Assembly: GCA_009192285.1 (NCBI GenBank)
Contig: CM018608.1
Location: 390,201-454,200 of the forward strand
Origin: Morchella semilibera
Lineage: Eukaryota > Ascomycota > Pezizomycetes > Pezizales > Morchellaceae
Direction of reading: 5' to 3'
Length of the DNA stretch: 64,000 nt
Every line of letters starts with the position of its first letter. The stretch's first letter is position 1. The notes under the pieces are model-generated. The model had not been told where the DNA came from. It made no database searches and saw only the letters and a program-made list of their open reading frames with translations. Positions 2,544-42,209 of the stretch are shown here, piece by piece. Both the position numbers and the translations under genes were made by a program.

Positions 2544-3414
2544 TTAAAGTGAGCGTTCTGACCAGATATGATATATATATTGTATCTGAGGGGTTATATA
2601 TTGTGTTTGGGGGGTTATGTCGGGCGGACTCTGCGAGAGTAACTGACTAGGTTTTATACAATATTATCAAGGCTAGCGAACCGATAACTTTCGAACAAAA
2701 ACCTAATAGATTAACCGTCGTCAGTGAAATGTTTTTCTTTTCTTCTTCGCGCCAAATTCACTCTTTGATACCTAATCACATCGCTGCACGCATGAAGGCT
2801 TAGAAGAAGAAAAAGAGAGGAGTTTTACCGATGAGTTTCTTCTAATTGGATAAACCAGAATTTCTCGGTGCTGTTGTCGAACGATTTTTATCTTTCGGGT
2901 CAAGTTTAGGCTGTCAGAGAGAGAGGCCTTAGCTAATAAATTCGATATGGTTTGATCTTTCGGATCTTTTCCACTTGATCGGGTCAAGATTGAAGTTTGG
3001 GAGCAGCAATAAAACAAACATCAAGGGACCGAGAGGCCCTTAATTAACCACGAGGCCATGGGCTGATTTTTCCTTTACCCCCCTCCCTTTGCTGGCGCAA
3101 GTAAGGTACCTTGGGTCTACGTCAAGAAGACCAAATCGTTTTTTTTTACTTTACCGCAACGTCATTGATATTGTAATCCGCGCCGGAAAGCCGTGAGAAA
3201 AACCAAGGCGCCTCCTACGTAGCTTTAACAATAGGCTTAATCTGCTGGTTTCTAGGCAGGCAAAGCAAAGCTCTTGTTATTACCTTTAGGTACCTTGTCA
3301 TCGCGTTAATCAAAAGTCTCAGCTTAGCGTCACGCTGTTGATCCGTTACATGGGTAATGACGACAACTTCTTTGATGACTTATTCGATCCAGGACCATTC
3401 CATGTAGACGAATA

Positions 3415-3575
3415 TAGTCTACCTCTGCTATACCGAATGCCAACAAAACCACAAATCTGCTATTACGAACAGGTTTGGTGATCAGAATTTCGGTTTCACA
3501 TAGAAAATGGTGGAATTTTTTCTGCTGTACCGAATAATCTGGAATATGCAGGTTCGTTATAGCGGAGGGAGACTG
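3415..3575. mobile_element. Pogo/Fot1-like MITE
   Basis: A 161-bp non-coding element. Its left end, read inward, and the reverse complement of its right end share the pattern AGTCT-n-CCTC-n-GCTATA-n-CGAA. This resembles pogo/Tigger/Fot1 terminal inverted repeats, which typically read CAGT followed by a CTCGCTATAACGAA-like block. Both sides are flanked by TA (3413-3414 and 3576-3577), the target duplication of Tc1/mariner-pogo elements. Degenerate inner copies of the GCTATA-n-CGAA block are visible near the middle. There is no coding capacity, so it would depend on a transposase elsewhere. The family assignment is inferred from terminal similarity only. Confidence 0.7.
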
Positions 3576-4751
3576 TACTGCAGCTTCTCAGGGACAAAGA
3601 TCTGCTACCATCATCGTTACTTCTTTGCCTAGGCCATTACAGGTAGGAGCTGACAGAGCACCACTATTTTGGAACTGGCCTGTGTAAAGTAGGGGGCCTT
3701 TGCCCTGGTCAAACTCATGTCGACGGGTTCGGAAAAGCCTGGATAGAGATAGAAGATAGGGACTACAAGAAATGTAATTATAGAGTTTGGGTCCAGTGAC
3801 GTCGATCTTGGCTGGTAATTCTCCAGTTGCCACGGAACGAACGGGAAACATGCAGCGGCACCCCCCCGCATAACAACGTCCCCTCACAAAATGCAGCTTC
3901 TCAATCATTACCCCGCAAATATTATAATTACATGTAGTAGGCCAGTTTTTGACTCTTTTCAAAGTGCTACTTTACATACCTGATCTTCCCTGACCAGATG
4001 TCTTAGTAGATAATACATGTAGCGCCCCCCCCCCCCCCCCCACCCCCCAAACCGTTTACTACACGGGCGATACCCGCCACTTAGGTACAGATCGGGGTGG
4101 GATACGTATACTTTTGGCCCATGGCCAGGTAGTTATCCCGGTATTTGACTAGGAAGGTGGAAAGATTACAGAGTCTGGTCTAGGTGTGTGTGTGGAGATC
4201 AAACCCACCCCATGCGCGGCTGGGGAAACCTCTCCTCCACGACCACCCCATATCCATCCCCCACACTCCTAGCCCACAGCCTCTCGGCGCATTGTGGTGA
4301 TAACCTTCTTTGCTCTTTTAAACCTGATTTTCATATATTTGGAAAAAAGACGACGGATTCAATCTGGTTCCCGAGAGTCCCCAGGCGATTAAGATTAACC
4401 CTTTATAAGTACAGGTAAAGTTTCGAGCAGATTGCCTAACCCAGGACCTCTTGCAGATATTTATAATACGATCGAGTGATGTCTCATGATGAAATCGACT
4501 GAACGTTTCAAGCTAATTGCCCTGAACGAAGTGAAGGGTAGGGGGTAAGAACTTATAGTGAGCTCTGATTGGTTCAAACCTTGTTGTGTTACCAAGGACT
4601 GATTAGTCAGCTCCTGAAGACTTCATCGTTCATCGAGCTTCCACAACCATTTCTCGTAAACAACGTTAACCAGTACAGTGCGATTCTCATTTTCGTGGCA
4701 ATACCATGCTTGATGTGAGATCACATTTTTATTTGAACTTCAACTTTAAAC

Positions 4752-4774
4752 TAAATTGATCTACTATCAATTTA
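4752..4774. repeat. Short palindrome, 9-bp stem and 5-nt loop
   Basis: TAAATTGAT (4752-4760), loop CTACT, then ATCAATTTA (4766-4774). It is a perfect AT-rich stem just before the 170-bp array. It could be part of the Helitron 3' region, where a hairpin precedes the CTRR end, but no clear CTRR terminus is seen at the expected distance. Confidence 0.45.
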
Positions 4775-4968
4775 ATCTTTTCTTCAATTGCATATTCCCT
4801 ACGGTCCTGCTTCTGCAAAAATTTCTTGCGGAAAGCAGTTGAACGCGACGCGACAAGATTCTGCTTAGTAATAAATTACAAATCACGGTATATTTAAAAA
4901 AATATTAATCAATTCATTTTGTATAGAAGCCTGCTAATAATCATTCTCCGATAATTTTAGACCCACCA

Positions 4969-5955
4969 GAAATTTATCACAATACATCGTGGAATATATA
5001 CTCTGGACCTACTTTTTCCGCTCTTTCATTTGGCAGTATTCACGACTCCATATCTCAAACGCCCACACCGTTACAACACATTCTTCCACAAACCCGGTAC
5101 TATTAGGACCAATACACTTGACAATTTCCTGAGCCTTAGAGAATTACCATATGATCCCATTGGATATACGTCCTAGACCCATTTTACCTGCTCTTTCATT
5201 TGGCAGTACCCACAATTCCATATCTCAAATATCCATACTGCTATAATCCATTCTTCCAGAGACCCGGCAGCACCAATATCAATATCTCTGGTAATTTCTT
5301 GAGTTTTGAGAAATCGTCACAGAATCCCGTGGAATATACGCCCTAGACCTATTTCACCCGCTCTTTCATTTGGCAGTATCCACGATTCCATATCTCAAAT
5401 ATCCACACTGCTACAACCTATTCTTCCAGAGACCCGGCAGCACCAATATCAATATCTTTGGTAATTTCTTGAGTTTTGAGAAATCGTCACAGAATCCCGT
5501 GGAATATACGCCCTAGACCTATTTCACCCGCTCTTTCATTTGGCAGTATCTACGATTCCATATCTCAAACGCTCACGCCGCTGCAACCTATTCTTCCAGA
5601 AACCCGCCAGCACCAAGATCAATATCTTTGGTAATTTCTTGAATTTTGGGGAGTTATCACAGGACCCCGTTGAATAGACGTTCTAGACCTATTTTTTCTG
5701 CTCTTTCATTTGGCGGTATTCACATCTCTATATCTCCAACGCTCACACCGCTGCAACCTATTCTTCCAGAGACCCGGCAGCATTAGGACCAATATCTTTG
5801 ATAATTTATTGAATTTTGGAGAATCACCACAGAACCCCGTAGGATAGGCGTTCTAGACCTATTTTCCCTGCTCTTTCATTTGACGGTATCCACGTTCCTA
5901 TATCCCTAACGCTCACGCCGCTGCAATCAATTCTGTTAGAGACCCGGCAGCAAAC
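4969..5955. repeat. Tandem array, six copies of a 170-bp unit
   Basis: The segment CTCTTTCATTTGgCgGTA, or close variants, starts at 5021, 5191, 5361, 5531, 5701 and 5871, exactly 170 bp apart each time. Neighbouring copies differ mainly by substitutions, so the period has been kept while the sequence drifted. Copies three and four are the most alike. The last unit ends about 9 bp before the oxygenase start codon at 5964, so the array forms that gene's whole upstream region. Possible roles are a repeated promoter or enhancer, a transcript leader, or a terminal-type Helitron repeat. The units contain no long open frame. Confidence 0.92.
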
Positions 5956-5963
5956 CCTTAGAT

Positions 5964-7176
5964 ATGAACGATGTGGTGGAAGGATTTGTGTTGGAGGACG
6001 AGATCGCAAGAGATACTGAAGAAGATTGGAATGATAGTGACGAGGAAATAGAGGTGGTAAATAAATCTGATTCAGAACTAGTTGATATTCCTAAACCACC
6101 CGCACGTCCCACACATTGGAAATGTGATCCATGTTGGCATTGGGATACTGCACCTTCACCCCCAGATCCTTCAGCACTCGGAAGTGATTATGATAGTGAG
6201 GAAGGATCTGTTGCTCCGCTATCAAAGAGTCAGAGAAGAAGGAGAAATAGAAATAAGAATAATAAAGGGAAGGAGCAAAAACTCAAAAGGATACATTCAG
6301 AGATTATGGAGACAGAAACACACTACCGAGTCAACATCCACAGCCTATACAAACGCACCCGGACAACCCAACCAAGTTCAATATATCAACTGACCCCTAT
6401 ACAACTCAATAATGCTCAAGGTATTCGGAAATACACTATATTGGAAGTTGCCAACGGGTTGCGAATCAAAGACATTAGAGGAAATATGCTTGTTCACCTG
6501 TATCCTTTAAACACAATCCCTCCGGAAATACTAGACCTTCTAGTAAAGTCATGGCAAAAGTATGACTCTACAGTACAATTCCCGATAGACAACTATACCA
6601 ATAAGAGAGGCAATTATATTGTTAGAGTATTGGGTTGTTGGTTCAAATCTGGCAGATTTCTGAATCCTTATATGACTCGGCACTATCGGGGACCAGATAC
6701 TGGTATCCATTATAAAAGGGTTGACAATCCCTATTATATGGCTGCGAAAGAATTTCAATCTTCTAACAGCCGATTGTGGGGTCTTGTTGAGGATTTAATC
6801 AAGACTGATTACCCTATCCTTTATGATATTTATAATCAAATCACAGTACCCGAAGGTTGTCATAAGTTTGCAGGATTGTTTGCTGCGGTTGTTGTTAATA
6901 AATTGGTTGAAACTAAAGCACATAAGGATTTGGGGGATATTAAAGGTGGTATTTGTGTCATTATCTGTTGGGGTGATTTTACTGGCGGTGAACTTGCCTT
7001 TTCTGAGCTTTGTTGTGTTGTTCCTTTCCTATCGGGTTCTATTATTATTTTTTCGTTCAGCTATAATAACTCACTATAACCTACCTGTAATTGGTGAGCG
7101 TTATAGTATGGTTTTGATGACTGATAAACGACTTCATAAATGGTCGAAGGCAAAAGAAATTGTTGTGGAAAATTAA
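5964..7176 (+). CDS. 2-oxoglutarate/Fe(II) dioxygenase-like protein, Helitron-associated (one frame break)
   Basis: About 403 residues over two frames. The N-terminal third is acidic and then lysine/arginine-rich, like a nuclear or DNA-contacting tail. The C-terminal part has the double-stranded beta-helix signature: H-x-D in HKDLGD (about residue 320), then a GDFTGGEL block, then a distal His in THYNLPV and an Arg in GERYSM, expected to bind iron and 2-oxoglutarate. The frame changes by one base at a T6 run near 7050; the text on both sides reads smoothly as one domain, so a homopolymer error or a young mutation is likely. The pattern recalls the TET/JBP-like oxygenases known from fungal DNA transposons, which oxidise 5-methylcytosine or thymine, but the substrate cannot be read from sequence. 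It is convergent with the transposase, 90 bp away. Confidence 0.72.
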
Positions 7177-7266
7177 ATTGATATTTGTATTCTTTATTTG
7201 TCTTGCCTCTAATTACCAATATTTCCGTTTGTCAATAATATCTGTTGTTTTTTCTTATTTCCTGTT

Positions 7267-10200
7267 TTACCATTTCCGATACCGCCTCCACTTCTCCAAA
7301 AATTTCTTTTCTAGCTCGTATAACCTTAACATTTCCGTCTCTAACTTTGGATCAGGTTTATATTTTAAGTCTGAACTAGCAAATGGTTTTAAAAGATATA
7401 GTCCATCAAGACTACGAACTCTTGATAACGCTACATACAACAACGCAAAATTATCATGTTCCGAACCATATGGTGGGGAGGTAGGCTTCGATATATCTAT
7501 TATAGCATTATCATATGTTTTACCTTGAGATTTATGAACAGTAATTGAATACGCTGGAGAACAAGGTAGTTGTAGCCTATTGATTAATTCTTTTTTCCTA
7601 ACATCGCGAGATTTTACCCCTGTTTTTGAGATATCAATTCTCATTCTAATAGGAAAAATTGGAACTAATGAAGGATCTAGTGACGAAAATGGAGTATGTT
7701 TAAGCGTAGATGATTTGTTGGTAATGCTCACAATTACGCAAAGTGGTGGCCGTGTATACCCTATCATGTTTGAATTTATTTGTATGCGGTTTGCTAATTA
7801 TAGTTATTAAAATAGTTTATTTTTACCGTGGTTTAAAGGGAATATACCTTGCATTTCGTTACTAACAACTACGTGTAGAGCAGTGCCAGTCATACCATTG
7901 ACAAATCCGGAGTCAGTATCAATATTTTTATTTAATACTAATGGCATTCCTTCTAGGAAGAAAAACAATCCAGGCCCCGAAGCATCTCCACTAGTTTCAT
8001 CTATCTTCAACAACTCTGCTCCAGTTGTTGTCCAACATCGATCATGTGTTGCAGGAAAAACAAGAATTGTTTTTCCATTTTTGTTAGAATTTGATATCAA
8101 TGATTGGATATTCATTTCCCGTCTTAAAAGATTGCGTTTAACAAGAATCTTTGTTTCGTTCTTTAATGGATTGACGAAACAACTATCTCCGGTAGGTATA
8201 CCGTTCAGATCTTGACTAATAATACGGGTTTTTAAGACATCTTCATCTTCTGATGTCAGACATCCTTTTCTTGCTCGAGTTATCAAAGATCTATAATTTA
8301 GATCTGCCGATTGCCGCATCTGTTGATCCAAAAATATCACGCATTCGAATAAATTCCATATCGATTTTCCAGATTGCTCTTCGACACTATCTGTTCTCGC
8401 TGGCCACCAAAAAGGCTTTGGTCCATTTTTTCCATAGGATACTGGTGGCAGTTGATAGAAATCACCAAAAAATAATACGGCTTCAAGATTTCCAAATGAA
8501 GATAATGAATCAGAATCAGGCTTTCTTGTTAACTTCGATAATCGGTTCTCAATGGTATATAGTTGAGCCAAATCTAACATACTTATTTCATCCACGATTA
8601 GGTACTTTTTATCCACCCAGAATCGAGCTTTTTTGTCAATCGTTCTTCCATTTATATGATTAGACCTCCGACTAAATGATAGATTTAATAGTGAGTGAAG
8701 TGTTTGTCCGTTAATATTATCTGCTGCAGTACCAGTTGGTGCGGCTAACACGAGTGAGTCTTTTATTCCTAGCTTTTCTGCTAACAAAACAATTGAATCA
8801 ATAACTCTTGACTTTCCGGTCCCTCCTTCCCCTCCCACATACATCCAAAGTGGTGGTCGATTTCTTTCAAGAAAACGTGTTCCAATAATATCTAAAACCA
8901 GGCTCTGTTTTTCATTCAAGTGCATTTCCATTTTAACAACTTCGACTAAATCTCTTCTGTCCAAATCGAAATCTTGAATGGTAGTGTGGCTACAATCTCT
9001 ACCTTGCGGTAAAGTTGTCTCGGGAGTTTTAACAAATTCTAATGTGCAAGTATCGATATCCATCTCCAATGTTCCGTATTCATTTTGCACACAGAAAGCG
9101 TTGTTCTTCCCCAAACAATCCCTTGACAATAAAGATGGTTCCTGTATAGTCCTTTTACATTCATTTTGGCTTTCAAAAGCCCAAGTTTCGATCAATTCAT
9201 AAGGTATATTTGGTTGTTTGGAGCTAATATTATTCATATCAAAAAAAGGTGAGTTCAAATTGGTGTTTATAGGTTGTGAAAATAGTTCTGATGTTTCGTT
9301 TGCTATTATGATACCATTCGTTGCCGTAGTCTCAACATCGACCGCAGCGCGCACACTATGATTAATACTTTTGTTGTAATCGGATGGTATTCCCCAGTCC
9401 TTTAATGCTGTTATCAATTCTGTCGCTAATTCCTTTGAACTTTTGATAGTTTGAACTTGTTGATTTCCGAAATCTTGTTCATTGCTGGTGTTGACTAATA
9501 CGTCTTCGTTTTGAAGTATATCTGATGATAGGTTTTGAAACAGTTGTGCATCTAGAACCGAGTCTTCTTTACTTTTTTTTAAAAGATTCCAATTATCTGC
9601 TATATTTCTAAGACGAGGGGATAGTATATTCTGATATACATATGACCACATTAAAATCGGTGTGTTTCCAATTCCGTCAAGAGTTCTGAGTTCGGTAATC
9701 ATTTCCCATGGTACAAAGAGACCAAGCAAAAGAATTGATTGCCTGAATAAGATCGTTATTAAATAATTTATAAAAACTGATTACATTCTAGAAAATTATA
9801 CATACCATTCATACTGATCTGAATAAACGAGGTTGTTAAACATTTTACCACTAAACTTAATGGTATATATATTTATTTCCTTCTCAACAAGTTTTTGGCT
9901 TACAGTTGTAAAGTTCGGATGATTTTCAGCAAAATCTATCCCTTTTCCACCTCCATTCTTTGAACGTATCTGTTTTTCGACACAGGATTTATAATCATAA
10001 AGGCAAAAATCCTTCAACAAATGTCCACGGTACCGGTAATCATCGAATGGACCTATACAAATATTTTTTTCTGGTTGAAATGTGAGATATTCTTCTGTAT
10101 CCTCCGAAGTACCAGTCATTAAAATAGTGTTATCCCATTGGCCAATATGTTTTACAATCATAACACCAAGACTTCCGAGATGTACTGATTTAAACTTTTC

Positions 10201-13200
10201 TGGTGTATAGTTTTCTGGATATCCCATTAATGTCGAAGCAACTTGAACTCCCGAGATTTCTCGATCAGTTGAGAGTTTATTAAAACATTTCAGTAGGAAC
10301 TTATCATGATTACAGTTTGGTAACTGTTCGATTTCCGCTGTCTCGATAGTACCTTTCGACTGTTTTGTACTATCACTGATTTTCTTTTGTACAGCTGCTG
10401 ATAAGGATAGAATATGATGAATTGGTGCGTCTTGCTTTGTTGCGTAATTGGTAACGTAATGAATTAATGACAACATTTTCGATCTAGTTACGATAAAAGA
10501 GATATCATGATTTGCTCTTAAACAACTTGCAATAGCAGGATTCCAACTATTAATCCATTGATTATTTCTCTGTAAGCTTACAACACCCTCATTTGATATA
10601 CTCGAAGTTGGTTTAATTGGTTCTGGTTTATTGAATCGACATTGTTGTTTTCCTCGATTATATTTGAAGCAGGTAGGCGTATGCATTTTATTATGCATCT
10701 GTTTAGAAAATGCAATAGCATTACTGTCTAAACTGAATATCTCCTGCCAAAGATCGTCATCGAGCAAAGGTGGTATCGTATTTTTACAATATTCTTGTAA
10801 CGTTTTAGGATCTAAATTTTGAGCTGATTCACTTATAATAGATTCAAGATAAGTAATTACTCTTTTCCCAAAGTTTTCATTATGGATAATCTTTTCACGC
10901 AGATTTTCAAATGCCAAATTTCCTTTCAGCCATATCAAACCATGAAGGTGCAGCATACCCCTTCCATTTGTTTCGACTGCAGCATAGTACGTTTCAGCAT
11001 TTCCAAATATCCCATGCTTTGAACGGTTAATTGCAACCAATTTCTCAAAGAAAGCAGTTACTATTTGATGAAAAAATGTAGCAACTGATGAAGGATTCAT
11101 TGTTGCCGTCACGGCGCAAAAGTTTGCTTTCATATCAGCAAGCAAAGAAGATGAACTCCCAATATCGCTTATGACACCAGAGAGTTTCAGCACTAAAGGG
11201 TTTCTCAAATCGCTTGGATTAAGAGTAAACCATATAGCTGGTACACCATACCGTACGACCATGGATTTCATTTCAACTCTCATACGAGTTCTTTGTTGAT
11301 AGGAATCGGGAACAAAAGCGCCAATTGATTGAATTGAATTTAGTAAAGTCTCGATATCTGGATTTTTAATTGCGTTTTTGTTTCGGATTGCATTGGCTGA
11401 TTCGAGTAGTTCGGTTTCAGTAAGTTTTGATAGAGATTCTTTTACTTTCGGCCAATTTGATTTCTTGACCAAAATTGAATGTCCAATAGCTGATTGTCTT
11501 CTAATCAAACAATCATAAACAAGATACATAAAAGTCAAATGTCTACTAAATCTTCCCAATTGATCTAAGATTAGTGTATGCTAATGTATAATAATTCGAT
11601 AGTATATTACCTTCGGCTATGATGGCCTATCAACCATCTTGCCCAAGAGACAAAGGATATTGGAGAATGTTTCTCAGTTGAATTCCAGAGATGACCTCCC
11701 TTTCCAGTCCAAAATAATGTTGGGAAGGTTGCCGTAAAGAATTCAGGGTCTGAATAATCATTTAACAGATTGGTAGAGTTTTGTTTGAACATCAAAACCT
11801 CTTCATTTGAACTATTTGTGGCGGCATTTTGCTTCGATGCTGTCGGTAAAAATTTGTTTTCGCCTGTTTTCGATTCATGATTGATTGTTCGAAACCGTTC
11901 TGATATCATTCGAAGTACCTCAGGTTCAAAAGCTGTTTCACCTCCATTTCCTTCTATATCCGTCAAAACTGAACCAGTGCATTCCTGCCCACTTGCGGGT
12001 ATGATACGATCTCCGAATTCAATTTGATCTTGAATCATATTTTCATATGCAATATGAAAGGAATCTTCTTCTGATTCTATAGACAATTCTCCCTCCTCTG
12101 AAATCTTATTTGAAGTCGTATCCTTAATATTGCCTGTTGAAAGTATACTATTGAAAATATTATCATTGACATAATTCGATCTAGCCTCGGCTTCAGTTTT
12201 TACATCATTTTCAAAAATGATTTTTTCCATCAGAATCGAAGGAACAGATTCTTCCGGCCATCGTTGAAGAAGAGCTTCATCAATCGTTAAGTTATAGTAT
12301 AGATGATTGTTTTTTGACAATCCTTTTAATGCCCGAATAACTTTTGACTTCCGAATTTGTAACCAAGGTTTCAATTCTATTTCGGATGGTGGGTTTTTTC
12401 CGAGCCATATAACCTTGATAATTGTACTGTCAATTTTTATTTTATCTTTATTGGGTAATTTACTAACCTGTATTCTGTCTTTTAAGTCGTTTATACTTAA
12501 TGGCAATACTTCAGACAATCGTTTCGGAGACAAAGGAACAACAACTATATGACCCTTAATCCGTCTATAACATACATTTGTAGAAATACTATGTGGCCTA
12601 AGCTTGATTATACTACCATATGATCTTCCACGTGAAATCACTATTTCCTCTAAATATGTAAGACCTTGAAGATAATCTGGTTTTTCTTGACAACACCCAA
12701 CTGATAATCCATTTGCAATACTTAAACGAGGAAGTTTCCCGTTTGTAAGAGATTTAGAACATAATGTACAAACGTTATAAATATTATCAGAAATAATTCC
12801 GCAAGCGTCTAATAAATGATTACTTGTTTTTGCTGATGCTTCAAATATAGGTAATAATCTTTTATCATCTTTTTGAAATTTTTGAAGCAGACCAGATTCA
12901 ACAAGTTGTGCACATACAGAACAGCATTCTGTAGGATGATTGTCTCCAACCATGAACTCTCGAAAAGATTGAATACTATAACGTATATTTTCTAACTCTA
13001 AATCTCTCGGCCATATCTCACTTTCTCTTCGTCGACCTTCAAATATATTTTCTAATAATGAAAGTGTTTCTTTCACTCTTATTTCATCTGAAAAGGTTTT
13101 TTTAGATGTAATGTGATCGATTTCATCTGGTTGTAGCTTTCGTTTACGTCGGATAGTTTTTGGGGGTAGATCTTTTCGAAGTTTTGATAGTATTGCCTCC

Positions 13201-13262
13201 TTTCTGTCCTTTTCTTGCTGACCTGTAATAATAGGTTGTGATGGCAGTATAAACTGAGGCAT
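7267..13262 (-). CDS. Helitron Rep-helicase transposase
   Basis: Four exons (11611-13262, 9806-11551, 7848-9742, 7267-7793) sum to 5,820 nt, an open frame of 1,939 residues; the introns are 59, 63 and 54 bp. The N-terminal part has paired cysteine motifs (CCSVC, CTLC), probably zinc-binding, and a region like the DUF6570 domain of fungal Helitrons. The Rep nuclease domain follows: WFTLNPSD, then HLHGLIW (HUH motif, near residue 760), then YVTNYATK (two catalytic tyrosines spaced YxxxY, near residue 915). The C-terminal Pif1-type helicase shows Walker A GGEGGTGKS, Walker B LIVDEISML and the late motif TVHKSQGKT. The protein nicks and replicates element DNA by rolling circle and unwinds it. No AP-endonuclease domain is present, so this is a canonical Helitron, not a Helentron. 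No breaks are seen. Confidence 0.93.
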
Positions 13263-13863
13263 TTCAAAAATGAATCTTAATTTTCTCGCATCTGTCCGTA
13301 CTATGCTACAAATAAGATAGCAGTAATATAATGATATTGCATTACTTCTTTATATCTAGCAAACTTTTGCTTAAACTCGGTTGTTATTATCGGTAAGTTG
13401 TTTTTTTCTTTTCTTAGATGAATCAAATATATATATGATATATATTGACGTAATAGATACTATAACCAAACTATAAATAATGTTATAAACACAGATGATG
13501 CCGATCATCCTGCCACAGCAGAAAAAAGAAATAATATTAATAACTAACTATATCAGAATAAGTATACGTCATAAATATTAATGAATCATAATAAGCTTTA
13601 CGTCTGTGCTTTTCAGTTATTGAAGTTGAGCTGTAACATTTGTTACAACATACAACATAATCTATTCATACACCAATATGTTTTTGCTAATTGTGATATA
13701 GTAAAGATCAAAAAGCTAAACCGTATCGAAAGAAAATAAAATGGTAAAATTTTAAGTTTAACAAACCGCTTTTGGTAATATATATATGGCAATCTCCTTC
13801 TTGTACTAAACTGATGCAACTAAACCTCAAGAATCAAAGTATTATCCGATTTCTGTTCAAGTT
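13263..13863. promoter_or_regulatory. Divergent promoter region inside the Helitron
   Basis: About 600 bp of AT-rich DNA between the transposase start (minus strand) and the first exon of the 501-residue gene (plus strand). TATATATA-like tracts occur near 13430 and 13780. No open frame is supported. The layout suggests a shared bidirectional promoter, which is inferred from gene order alone. Confidence 0.45.
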
Positions 13864-15528
13864 ATGACGGGGAAAAGACAGAATTTCAATAATAATTCCG
13901 GTAGAACATGTTGTATTCTCTATTTTCTAACTTCTATTTAATAACAATATAGTTAAAAGTGCTAATATTATTTAATTTTTTTCAAGTGCGGAACAAAGGC
14001 GATAAAAACTCGGTTCCTTCAGTTCGGGCTCAGGAGCTAGCCGGACCTAAAGTGTCAACTACCCCCGACCAAGCGGAACTACCAACAATATCTAAAGATA
14101 GTGAAACCAATACTATCATCTCAACAAATATGGAATTGAATTCATTTGAGCAACCTACGGTATTTACCCTAGAATACTTTGAAATATATTCAATAGATTA
14201 TTTAGTTATATTAATATTCATATAAAATTTAGACTGATAGTATTCTCTCTGAAACGATTATGAATTCTGTGGCTTCGGGTCCGAGTCTGGAGACACAGGC
14301 GCAGCACCGCCCACAACTAGCTCATTCATCTAAAAGTCGTAATCAATTATTGAGTACTCCGACAATCACTGCAAATATGGTATCGATTGATGACTCAAAT
14401 ACTATTATTTCGGATTCTGATTCGAGAACCTATTTCAATACCCTTATCACTAATTCTGCTGCAACAATCGAGAAAATACCCCCGAAATGCGAGATGAATG
14501 AAGCTGAGAAACGGGAAAGGAAGAAGAGTAAAGAGAGATTGGTTTTCGGGAGTGAATCAGAAAGAATTTTTCATGATTGTACCTCCAGCCTCCACAACTC
14601 ACTGAAATCTATTAATGGTGATGGAAATGACTGGATCGACATGGGAAGAGACGGAATTCACACCGGAATAATGCTAGTATCACGTGGATTATCTATGACA
14701 CCACAACCCAGATTGATTACCATCACTGGATCAGTCAATGCCAACTATCTTTCTAGACCTTCAGCTATTAACTCAGGTTCATCAACCTGGTCAGTAAACT
14801 TAACGATCAGTGAACAAACTTACTCAGATTTATATTCACTTGTAAACACAGGACCGAGAAAAATACAATCTGTTCAAGATGGTATCAGTTCGGTTTACAT
14901 TCCTTTTAGAAAAGTCGATGGTCGGTTTGAACTAAAGCTTAAAGCGAAAGTTCAATACTTTGAAGATTTAAGAGTTGCAACCTTTCAACATGAAATTATG
15001 GAAGAACGAAGAGCAATGAGACAAATCGCGTCAACGGTCGATCCCGCGAACGATGAAGACAATAACGTAACCGATACTAAACCTAGAAACGAAAACAACG
15101 ATGTTTCAAATATAGTTAGAGTTGATAACTATGAAGAGTTAGAAGATGACATTCCTAAAATTGAGGCTAAGGATTGGACGATTTCACCATTTCCTAATAT
15201 TTACGATTCTACATCTGTTCCTTCTCTTGATTCACCATTTATTCATACTTCTCATAATAATATTATTCCGAGATGTTTAGTTGCAGTTCGTTGTTTTACA
15301 ATGTTTTGGGATTTCAGTATTGATAGCAAGCAGAGAACAGGATATACCCTACAATTAGAATCTCTACATCTTATAAATTCCTCTAGTAATCACCGTATCG
15401 ATTTGATACCGAAAGCACCTATGAAACGAGTTGGCGGTAAAGATTTTGATTCAAGTATTGGAGGTAAAGGAAAACACCGCCGACTAATTCCCTTTTCTAC
15501 TAAAAAACCATCTTTTGCAGACCTTTGA
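13864..15528 (+). CDS. Unknown Helitron-associated protein, 501 residues
   Basis: Three exons (13864-13900, 13987-14159, 14233-15528) join with correct phases to 502 codons; introns are 86 and 73 bp with clear acceptors, and a GCTAAT branch-like site is visible in the first. I do not recognise the family. The first 140 residues are Ser/Thr/Asn/Gln-rich and low in complexity. Residues about 150-330 look beta-rich with alternating hydrophobic residues (LITITGSV, STWSVNLTI, SSVYIPF, FELKLKAKV). An acidic stretch follows, and another beta-rich block (LVAVRCFTMFWDF, YTLQLESLHLI) comes before a basic tail. Such a layout would suit a single-strand DNA-binding (OB-fold-like) partner, as plant Helitrons carry RPA, but that is a guess. 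It is divergent from the transposase and has no breaks. Confidence 0.72.
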
Positions 15529-16208
15529 AAACAGTATCTAAATTGTATGCTTACCTTATTTCATTAATATTTAATTATTTAAATCTTTGGGTAAATCCCT
15601 AAATTAATATATTTCTTTTTATTTATTTTATATATAAAAATCAAATTACATTTACATTTTTCCATGATTCGTTCAGGGCATACGACCGCCCCCATAAAGC
15701 AAGAGTCACCAGTTTGGGGCGGCGTGCCTAGTGGCCTAAGGTTCAAGATTAAACATGGACGCGAGATAGGTTAGTGGAGGGTAAGGTTAGTGGAGGGTAA
15801 GGTTAGTGGAGGGTAAGCTTAGGATGGCAGATTTAAACCCTTCACGTACATAAAAAGAAGCTTAGAAGCTTTTCTAGGGTAAACGAACTATGTGGGAAAG
15901 CCACTCCCTCGAGCTCTGAATCCTAAGCAGACACTTTCGTTTGGCTTTCATAGTATCTATAATTGCAATCGCGATGAAGAAGGGAGAGGGAGGTAGACTA
16001 CAAGACGCATAAAAGGTGCCGAATATAAGATTTTTCTGCCACAAGGTGCGTTCACTTAAGGGTAAGGTTATACAAGGCTCTAACACCGAGATCTTTACAA
16101 ATTAAGAAATATATGGGGCAAAGCATCTAGAAGATCTAGAAGGGCTGAGGTTCTTCAGTCCTCCGAGTATTTACCTGGCAGGGCCCAAGCATAGCGAATC
16201 GCTTATTC
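15529..16208. other. Intergenic; Helitron flank and short tandem repeat
   Basis: AT-rich DNA runs to about 15665, then becomes more GC-rich, possibly the Helitron boundary. A 16-bp tandem repeat lies at 15769-15816. No gene is supported; the part near 16208 is likely the 3' UTR of the XLF-like gene. Confidence 0.5.
15769..15816. repeat. 16-bp unit, three perfect tandem copies
   Basis: GGTTAGTGGAGGGTAA is repeated three times head to tail without change, beginning at 15769, 15785 and 15801. Perfect identity points to a recent slippage-type expansion. It lies just outside the presumed Helitron edge. Confidence 0.9.
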
Positions 16209-20060: not shown

Positions 20061-27435
<7,375 letters not shown>

Positions 27436-39017: not shown

Positions 39018-42000
39018 ATGGCTGAGGTGGTGGGTCTTACAGCGAGTATCCTTACCCTAGTTCAAGCCACAGCAACTGTAGCTTCGTTCAGCTACGATTA
39101 TATTGTCGGTATCAAAAAGGCCCCGGAAAGCATAAAAAGACTTTTTGACGAACTAAAATCGTTCGCCTCCGCACTTTCTATAATACAAATTGGCGTAAAG
39201 GACGATGCCTTCGAATCAAGCATAGAGTTACAAGCACAGGTCCGCGAGCCTTTGCAGAGATGTCTGATGGAAATGAAGAGATTGGAGGATAAGCTGGGTC
39301 CGAGGACAAAAAAAGGGGCAGGGTGGTGGAAGAACGCTGTTGTATGGGCTCAGTGGCCCTTTGAAGAGAAGAAAACCTTGGGATTTATAGAGAAGATCGA
39401 GAGGTATAAGACTTTATTCACACTACTTTTGGGAACATCTCAGTTGTAAGTTTGGGGATTCAGAGCTCGATATAATCGTCACTGTTATCTAACTTACACC
39501 TCTAAAATAGATGTCACACGACAGCTCTCGGGAAGACAATTACCGACTTAAACAAAGATGTTCAAGTACTCACACAAGCAGTCTCGGCGCTAACACCCCC
39601 ATCACAACTACTACATGTGTCACATAATTCGGACCCACTAAAACTAAAGGACAAAGAATGTATTAGTAAGTGGATGAAATCTAATATAGAAACGAGCCCT
39701 ATACTATGGGCTAATCTATACTATGGGCTAATCAGGGACTTAGAACAATGCATTGAAGTTCTCCAAGTACTACATCCTGGTAGTTTTGATGAACGACATG
39801 TAGAGGTTTCTCGGAGGCGAAAATTGAATACAGGAAAGTGGCTTTTAAATACACCAGAAATAAAGAGGTGGTATTCAAGCAAGGAAGGAAGCCGAAATTT
39901 GTTGTGGGGGTTCGGTATTCGTAGGTTCTACCTTTTACTTGTTACCAGCTTAATTCAATACTGATATATTTTTATCTCATGTGTAGCGGGGGCTGGGAAA
40001 ACATTCATAAGGTATGTATAGTGCTCTATGATACAGAATTACTCTAAGCTCACCAAGGGAACTGATGATACTATAGTTCATTTTTGATTGATCATCTAAA
40101 GGGCCAGCCAAAGGCCACCAACCACGGAGTAGCATATATCTACTTCAATTACAAGGAACAAGATCAACAATTATCCAAAGATGTTCTTGCCAGCTTAATC
40201 AAGCAACTTTCTTGCCGCTTACCACAGTCTGATCTCCCAACCGAGCTTAGCTATCTCTATCAAAGTCTAGTGACACAGAAAGAAACTCCTACATCTGAGG
40301 GCCTATATCCTGTTCTGCTAGCGCTTGCCAAAAAGTTTACGAGAACATTCATTATTTGCGACGCCCTAGACGAATGTGACCCGCAAATTCAAAGGAGGGA
40401 ACTATTGCCTCTGTTTCACAAAATGAGTAAGGACATGAATCTCTTCGTAACCAGTCGCGAATACCCAGAAGATATCCAGCATTCTTTTCGGGACTCACCC
40501 AAAATAGAACTCTCAGCAAAGGATGAAGATATTGCCAGATATATCGAACAAAAGATTGCCGATAATCCCAGAGCAGAACGTCTCGTTGGAGAAGAAGTTG
40601 ATTGCAGAAAGAAAATTATTGGTAGCCTCCAGAGTTGTTCTAAGGGAATGTAAGCATGCTATTCGTGATATTTTTTCCATCAAACGGCTAGATTATTGGC
40701 TACTAGATTCGCACTTGATGCTAAACTTGGAGTTTTAGGTTCCTGCTTGTTCATTTTCATATAGAATACCTGTGCAAGCAGACTACTAGGAGGCAGATCC
40801 TGGAGGAACTTGAACGGCTGGACAACTCATCCCATGAGTCTGAAGTTAATCCCATGGATCCTACCTACGACAGGGCTATGGAAATTCTCAAAGCGCAGCC
40901 GAAGAACTGTGTGGATCTTGCGCTTAAGATTTTTTCATGGCTTGTTAATTCTCGTCGGGTTCTAACTGTCCGCGAGCTTCAGTTAGCAGTGTCGACAAGG
41001 CGAGATAACACAGTTTTCGACGAATCGGATATACCCGACAGAAAGACGCTGCTTGATGTTTGTTCGAGCCTAGTAACGATAGACAAAAAACAAGACACTG
41101 TTAGGCTTGTCCATTATACTGCTCAGGAATATCTTTTGAGAAGATCACTACTGCCAAAAGATACAAACCTCGATCTTGCCGCGACATGTATATCATTCCT
41201 TTCCCTTGATATATTTGTCAATATTCCCTCTAGTAACTTTTACGAGTTATATCCTCTTGATATTTCGTATCCTTTTTTGAAATATTGCGCAGACTTCGCA
41301 GGTTATCATATCACCAATTGCGACGAACATTTGGTAGCGGATATGGTCCTTAGGTTCCTTAGGAGCTCAAGCCACTTATCCTATCTCTGGGTAAAATACG
41401 GTCAGACAGCGTGCATATATCCATCCCAAGGAGATGCATATGTGCTTCACGCAGCAGCTTCTCTGGGAAATCGAACAGCTGTTAAGATGTCTATAAAAGG
41501 GGATATAGATATCACAAACTCTCTAAATCACACCCCATTTTTCATAGCGGTGCATGAGGGCCATCTTTCAGTGGTTGAGCTTTTGCTGGATAGAGGTGCG
41601 GACATATCAGCAACAGATAAAGATGGGCAGACAGCACTTCTATGGGCATCCAGAGGGTATGAATCGACTGTCAGGCTTTTACTTGACAGAGGTGCGGACA
41701 CATCAGCCACAGATGAATATGGGTGGAAAGCACTTCTATGGGCATCCTATAGAGGGTGCGAATCGACTGTCAGGCTTTCACTTGACAGAGGTGCGGACAT
41801 ATCAGTCACAGATGAATATGGGTGGACAGCACTTCTATGGGCATCCTATGGAGGGTGCGAATCGACTGTCAGGCTTTTACTTGACAGAGGTGCCGACATA
41901 TCAGCCACAGATATAGATGGGCAGACAGCACTTCTACGGGCATCCGATGGAGGGCATGAATCGACTGTCAGGCTTTTACTTGACAGAGGTGCGGACATAT

Positions 42001-42209
42001 CAGCCACAGACAAAGATAGGTGGACAGCACTTCTATGGGCATCGAATAGAGGGCATGAATCGACTGTCAGGCTTTTACTTGACAGAGGTGCGGACATATC
42101 AGCCACAGATAAAAATGGGCGGACGGCGCTTCTGATGGCACTTCGGTCAGGGCACAGAGGGACCGCCAGGATATTACGTGAGAGGGGTGCGGACGAGTCA
42201 ACTAGATAG
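39018..42209 (+). CDS. HeLo-like-NACHT-ankyrin receptor (fungal NLR)
   Basis: Five exons (39018-39445, 39511-39920, 39987-40011, 40077-40649, 40739-42209) sum to 2,907 nt, 968 residues. The N-terminal part (MAEVVGLTASILTLVQ...) resembles the fungal STAND N-terminal or HeLo-like domain, a membrane-acting or signalling module. The NACHT NTPase shows the P-loop GIPGAGKT at about residue 280, split across a 25-nt exon, and Walker B TFIICDALDECD. The winged-helix region SRRVLTVRELQLAVS follows. From about residue 720 to the end there are ankyrin repeats, the last six 32-33 residues each and nearly identical. Such proteins act in non-self recognition and regulated cell death in fungi; the ligand here is unknown. 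A 17-bp duplication lies in exon 2. No breaks are seen. Confidence 0.92.
39699..39732 (+). repeat. 17-bp perfect tandem duplication in the NLR gene
   Basis: CTATACTATGGGCTAAT occurs twice in direct tandem inside exon 2. The unit is not a multiple of three, yet the present two-copy form is open. A single-copy form would read into a TGA about 25 bases later if the downstream frame were unchanged. Confidence 0.9.
41589..42176 (+). repeat. Ankyrin repeat DNA array, six units of about 99 bp
   Basis: Six head-to-tail units, the first 96 bp and the rest about 99 bp, each opening with codons for DRGADIS. The four middle units are almost identical at DNA level, including silent sites. Changes cluster at the residues after SATD and around WAS-x-G. 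This pattern of homogenisation plus clustered variation fits repeat shuffling in fungal NLR recognition domains. Confidence 0.9.

Follow-up and report, generated by a model that had tools for sequence, protein, structure and literature searches.

A 64,000-nucleotide stretch of the Morchella semilibera genome (assembly GCA_009192285.1, contig CM018608.1, positions 390,201 to 454,200; hereafter the window) holds a Helitron transposase gene between a convergent gene for a 2-oxoglutarate- and Fe(II)-dependent (2OG-Fe(II)) oxygenase and a divergent partner gene. Do these three genes form one transposable element, and might the oxygenase help such an element to evade silencing by DNA methylation? 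A first-pass annotation made from the sequence alone had suggested as much, describing a Helitron complete in coding capacity at positions 4960 to 15665. We followed up this proposal in the 56.7-Mb assembly of 23 contigs, where the window lies within the contig designated C6. Our family, protein, and DNA searches of this genome give lower bounds, and flanking sequences were searched in the window's own assembly only. The results make it likely that a single 11-kb Helitron of the autonomous type spans 4518 to about 15720, with asymmetric ends like those of Helitron2 (as in FoHeli3 to FoHeli5) and with both outer genes inside.

The transposase and the ends of the element

The exons of the transposase gene match the Pfam families DUF6570 (E 1.6e-24), Helitron_like_N (1.2e-31), and PIF1 (1.9e-17). 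The protein carries HLH as its HUH motif at residue 752, YVTNY as its YxxxY motif at residue 916, and Pif1-type helicase motifs starting between residues 1436 and 1884. Thus, a two-tyrosine HUH Rep domain is fused to a Pif1-type helicase in one protein, as in Rep-Hel transposases, and all three motifs named at the outset are present. The four exon frames gave no Pfam match to the Helentron endonuclease domain, and no Helitron transposase was among the matches in the Protein Data Bank (PDB). The originally proposed model of 1,939 codons with three introns was recovered to the residue, among 48 splice combinations that stay open and encode 1,910 to 1,946 residues; because that many combinations are open, the exact splice sites are provisional. 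In each of the three gene regions, the longest open stretch beat 200 of 200 dinucleotide shuffles (431 against a shuffle maximum of 144, 379 against 247, and 657 against 164).

The left boundary is set by a second copy on contig C17, which aligns with window positions 4518 to 8987 in pieces of 86 to 94% identity. This copy starts at the same base as the window element, beyond the oxygenase gene, and its version of the terminal 13-mer has one mismatch. The exact 13-mer TGCCCTGAACGAA occurs three times genome-wide, and two of these occurrences are the ends of the window element; with at most one mismatch there are 80 matches, compared with 38 for a reversed control. The 60-bp flanks outside the left repeat share no similarity among C6, C17, and a mini-element on C22, and the base immediately outside is T on C6 and A on C17, C22, and a further relative on C7. 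Low G+C content also marks the block, with 30 to 40% per kilobase over 6 to 16 kb and 41 to 58% elsewhere in the window.

The right boundary comes from the C22 mini-element (C22:1944591–1944857; L061:342–608), which is 267 bp long and carries the Helitron repeats at both ends; a search with the element and its flanks found no second copy of it in the assembly. Its sequence is similar to that of the window on the inner side of the left repeat (4531–4578; score equalled by 0 of 20,000 random windows) and across the 60 bp beyond the right repeat (0 of 20,000, or 18 of 20,000 in an earlier version of the test). It is unlike the window in the following 60 bp (10,100 of 20,000 random windows as good), outside the left repeat (17,372 of 20,000), and on the inner side of the right repeat (7,010 of 20,000), where only a few adjoining bases agree. 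Because the mini-element shares both repeats and the extra stretch, the right end is placed about 40 bp outside the 15668–15680 repeat, probably near 15720 to within about 15 bp. Of the two repeats, the left appears to be terminal and the right subterminal, and the element therefore appears to have the asymmetric Helitron2-type layout, wherein one copy of the inverted repeat is terminal and the other lies 20 to 40 bp inside its end.

These ends differ from those first expected. Canonical Helitron1 termini (5′ TC and 3′ CTRR) were rejected, as the left end is TGCCCTGAACGAA; the right end is placed only approximately. Asymmetric terminal inverted repeats were found in their stead. The interval first annotated is also too short, the left end being at 4518 and the right end beyond 15680. 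A hairpin at the right end scored z −2.69 (15681–15725) and −1.70 (15668–15725) in the window and 0.57 and −0.31 in the C22 mini-element, and the left-end hairpin was no better than shuffles (z −0.29 in the window, 0.04 in C22). Inspection by eye showed no target-site duplication around the window copy or the C22 copy.

Only one full-length copy of the element was found in the genome. A third start with the exact repeat lies at C7:901453 (4 of 2,000 random stretches as good in comparison with window 4531–4590). In an alignment, most of this relative is similar to the C22 element, and its right end looks missing: the window right end was not found there (950 of 1,000 random stretches as good), so that it was rejected as a witness to that end, and the C22 right end was matched weakly (33 of 1,000). 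Three other candidate ends (C3:2001886, C3:2004064, and C18:395240) were not supported. Nor are other Helitrons of this genome close relatives, since a tblastn search with the transposase at E ≤1e-3 against 11 other Helitron stretches of 2.3 to 3.5 kb matched, besides C17, only one, on C11, in the helicase part at 30% identity. Contigs C9/C10, C12/C13, and C21/C22 form pairs with matching match positions, and a 9,901-bp stretch of C9 and C10 is 100% identical; some of the assembly is therefore apparently present in duplicate.

Both outer genes fall within the mapped termini, and no terminus was found between the transposase and either of them, which supports the original view that both are cargo inside the Helitron. 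One could also picture a Helitron made of the transposase and the partner, or of the transposase alone, with the oxygenase belonging to a separate transposon or to the host. The fact that relatives of the oxygenase on C5 and C9/C10 adjoin genes of a different transposon type, with rva_4 integrases, means that the gene can move between elements and lends this alternative some weight. Against it, the window and C17 copies both run from the helicase through the oxygenase and the tandem array to the same terminal repeat, and the C22 mini-element joins the left terminus to the right-hand one; we therefore regard a separate oxygenase as highly improbable. The C17 copy, whose array has fewer units and in which about 400 bp near 4846 are of other sequence, accounts for the one further copy of the transposase that the genome searches found, a lower bound. 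It has the oxygenase and shares the left end with the window element. As the similarity extends no further than the equivalent of 8987, this copy is silent on the partner. A second copy of the partner gene was not found in the genome search, and for the partner it is thus the ends that argue for cargo status.

Table 1. Features of the Helitron, by position in the window
Feature	Position	Strand	Evidence
Left terminus, 13-bp TGCCCTGAACGAA, outer end (5′ end by Helitron2 convention)	4518–4530	+	C17 homology begins exactly at 4518
Left terminal region common to C17 copy, C22 mini-element, and C7:901453 relative	4518–4578	+	Random-window comparisons
5.7 tandem copies of a 170-bp unit, upstream of oxygenase	4988–5952	+	Repeat detection; also matched in C17
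TET/JBP-like 2OG-Fe(II) oxygenase open reading frame, 371 aa, HKD motif, convergent on transposase	5964–7079	+	PF12851, open reading frame
Oxygenase C-terminal segment (distal His and Arg), other frame	7054–7173	+	Frame analysis
Four-exon gene for Rep-Hel transposase of 1,939 aa	7267–13262	−	Pfam, splice models, motifs
Transposase intron 3 (model, GT-AG)	7794–7847	−	Splice modelling
Transposase intron 2 (model, GT-AG)	9743–9805	−	Splice modelling
Transposase intron 1 (model, GT-AG)	11552–11610	−	Splice modelling
Partner gene, divergent from transposase; a 501-aa model has introns 13901–13986 and 14160–14232	13864–15528	+	Splice models
Inverted copy of 13-bp repeat, TTCGTTCAGGGCA	15668–15680	+	13-mer search
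Probable 3′ terminal segment outside inverted repeat, G+C-rich hairpin	15681–15720	+	C22 comparison, end ± ~15 bp

The oxygenase and the partner gene

The convergent oxygenase matches the Tet_JBP family (PF12851) at E 1.3e-5 with 25 bits, or 26.6 bits in a genome scan that found at least 11 TET/JBP matches at E ≤1e-3, at least four of them above the gathering cut-off. The oxygenase expected here is thus present and of the TET/JBP type, but it is not intact. Its frame runs out at 7079, short of the distal His that binds iron, so that HxD, His, and Arg do not stand in one frame; in the paralogues on C5 and C9/C10 the part bearing the distal His and Arg is in frame. An intron in place of the frame break was rejected, as the sole GT-AG candidate noticed would delete a stretch conserved in the paralogues. 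The break falls in a T run. Assembly errors are common in such runs, and an error of this kind is a possible cause. In the C17 copy the gene is intact at the window's break point and has three in-frame stops elsewhere in the aligned part.

The paralogues on C5 and C9/C10 have open frames and are 52 to 53% identical to the window oxygenase. All three share HKD, and HxD was seen by eye in six of six other TET-family loci inspected. The ratio of nonsynonymous to synonymous substitution rates (dN/dS) is 0.25 between C6 and C9 and 0.09 between C5 and C9, with synonymous sites near saturation; that between C6 and C5 was saturated and not computable. Constraint on the oxygenase lineage looks strong. 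The ratio of observed to expected CpG is 0.58 in the oxygenase frame, 0.93 in the transposase, and 1.04 in the partner. A PDB search with the oxygenase gave no meaningful match, no relatives of the oxygenase, the partner exon, or the Rep exon were found in viral contigs, and alignment-free structure predictions for the partner exon and the oxygenase were unusable (mean predicted local distance difference test scores of 32 and 37).

The divergent partner, first described as a 501-residue protein encoded with introns, has nine open models of 497 to 514 residues, and two of these have exactly that length (one with exons 13864–13900, 13987–14159, and 14233–15528). For its large exon, searches gave no Pfam match at E ≤1 and nothing meaningful in the PDB, and its middle exon has a single Pfam match, to an unrelated family, at E 0.07. 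The description of the Helitron as complete in coding capacity accordingly holds for the transposase and the partner and fails for the oxygenase, which is frame-broken here and interrupted by stops on C17.

These defects raise the question of whether the element is a dead relic in which the oxygenase has no function, the constraint on the gene reflecting the integrase-type elements only. The break in the window, the stops in the C17 copy, and the finding of a single full-length copy would fit such a relic. The transposase and the partner remain open over 1,939 and 501 codons, the break in the window lies where an assembly error is readily produced, and comparison of C6 with the decayed C17 copy gives dN/dS values of 0.39 (oxygenase) and 0.59 (helicase exon). 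We consider a relic somewhat doubtful on balance.

Methylation and the proposed function

Cytosine methyltransferase domains are encoded at no fewer than three loci of the genome, the C12/C13 pair being counted once. Where the window has C, the C17 copy has T at 25 of 158 CpG sites, compared with 87 of 937 for the remaining C positions (Fisher p 0.016); in the reverse direction the counts are 7 of 114 CpG and 44 of 909 other sites. These C/T differences were not polarised by an outgroup, and their direction is unproven. Repeat-induced point mutation (RIP) was rejected as the cause of C17 decay, there being no CpA excess (34 of 366 CpA sites, against 25 of 158 CpG sites), and the RIP indices of the element and the C17 copy are near those of the flank. 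The excess of CpG transitions weakly favours methylation over RIP.

That the oxygenase modifies DNA bases, as had been proposed, is a fair inference because it is of the TET/JBP type, although this copy is frame-broken; its family would make 5-methylcytosine the expected substrate. The enzyme might instead act on RNA or on another base, for example the thymine or adenine of the element's own DNA. According to the accessible text of Kojima 2025 (PMC12730594), a fungal TET acts on 6-methyladenine as well, and modification of cytosine or thymine cannot be excluded; in addition, the family score of the window oxygenase is weak. The presence of cytosine methyltransferase domains and the modest CpG transition excess in the decayed C17 copy speak for 5-methylcytosine, and another substrate is in our view unlikely.

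Several observations weigh against a Helitron with asymmetric ends and a methylation-countering cargo. The right end depends on the single C22 mini-element, which a few bases inside the right repeat ceases to resemble the window. The Helitron2-like label reflects end architecture and not a transposase tree. No empty site was found: 40 of 192 candidates for the left flank were scored in the assembly and included no allele, and a 401-bp piece of the right flank matched only itself. The PF12851 score of the oxygenase lies under the gathering cut-off of 34.9, and the gene is broken in both Helitron copies, so that no intact Helitron-borne oxygenase is seen in this assembly. Finally, CpG is not depleted across the element (observed/expected 0.91, against 0.82 to 0.88 in the flanks), which leaves methylation of the element hypothetical.

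We nevertheless favour one Helitron that carries the oxygenase as cargo. By analogy with its family, the Rep-Hel protein encoded on the minus strand would introduce a nick into one strand at a terminus, and its Pif1-type helicase would unwind the nicked strand for reinsertion by a rolling-circle route. The TET/JBP-like dioxygenase was most likely kept by selection in its lineage because it would oxidise 5-methylcytosine in the element's DNA, thereby weakening silencing by methylation. The divergent partner, judged from its position only, would probably assist transposition.

Neighbouring features and published relatives

Just outside the right end of the element is a 16-bp tandem repeat of 3.4 copies (15768–15822), and near its left end are two dispersed short repeats with many genome copies (3412–3579 and 4192–4350). 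Farther away, direct repeats of about 99 bp occur within a coding region at 41579–42194, which we take to be ankyrin-like; it adjoins another open reading frame, presumably NACHT-like. A Prp8 exon at 21858–24683 (+) has its best match in PRP8 of 9L5R (1966 bits, against at most 1797 for the other 14 sequences), which comes from Chaetomium thermophilum (PMC11958768); this match by itself points most probably to a filamentous ascomycete as the host.

In its accessible text, Kojima 2025 (PMC12730594) reports TET-carrying Helitrons from Puccinia graminis, Agaricus bisporus, and five species of Pezizales belonging to four families, as well as a TET-carrying IS3EU in Tuber indicum, and proposes that such Helitrons escape silencing by methylation. 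The window element, with its TET/JBP dioxygenase gene inside a Helitron, is like those Helitrons. A literature search judged by titles and abstract openings, which covered few subscription journals, found no second paper about TET-bearing Helitrons. Because these elements and the anti-silencing idea were published in 2025, the window element is a further example and the central idea is already in print. Compared by description only, the window oxygenase (HKD, thus HxD) differs from the PE-type TET of that paper (HxE), and the Helitron2-like ends differ from the Helitron1 designation given to the pezizalean TET-carrying Helitrons.

The carriers that the same text gives for Ascomycota are Helitron and IS3EU; here they are a Helitron and integrase-type elements. 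An HxD TET-like gene of 400 codons at C5:72.6–75.9 kb (L021:4118–7431) adjoins rva_4 integrase genes (E 8.3e-4 and 2.5e-7 for two pieces), and another of 455 codons on C10, the same on C9 (L022:2826–5973), adjoins one such gene (E 7.9e-18); both are open. By the published association, these loci are probably TET-carrying IS3EU-like elements. A second TET-like group, with an HMD or HRD motif and alike by eye, is found on C7, at C6:1734168, on C21, and on C14 (L063, L064, L065, and L067), each more than 300 kb from the Helitron_like_N matches listed on the same contigs. We tentatively suggest, as somewhat short of an even prospect, that the HxD lineage moved between Helitron2-type and IS3EU-like elements within one ascomycete, was joined by a Helitron-specific partner, and was captured independently of the PE type.

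In architecture the element is closest to FoHeli3 to FoHeli5 of Fusarium oxysporum (Chellapan 2016, PMC5148889, accessible text), which start with TGCC(T), have a 13- to 16-bp inverted repeat whose 3′ copy lies about 20 to 40 bp inside the end, and measure 9 to 11 kb. In some FoHeli subgroups the orientation of the reading frame is inverted, and FoHeli3 has a divergent extra reading frame without known domains upstream of the transposase. Unlike the window element, FoHeli3 to FoHeli5 are described in that text with no mention of an oxygenase, and the FoHeli 3′ end CTCCTGT was not seen by eye at window 15681–15740. KDZ transposons likewise carry a TET/JBP oxygenase, but with a DDE-type transposase and not Rep-Hel (Iyer 2014, as cited in PMC12730594). 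Plant Helitrons with RPA-like proteins, as portrayed in the accessible parts of PMC5148889 and PMC4289320, also have an accessory gene beside the transposase; unlike the RPA-like genes, the large exon of the partner has no Pfam match at E ≤1.

With this element, the short list of transposons bearing an enzyme of the DNA-demethylation type gains an entry whose ends are mapped, and such ends would permit its copies to be collected and insertion sites to be tested. Because the genome also encodes cytosine methyltransferase domains and has TET-like genes next to transposons of another type, the anti-silencing idea is testable in one organism.

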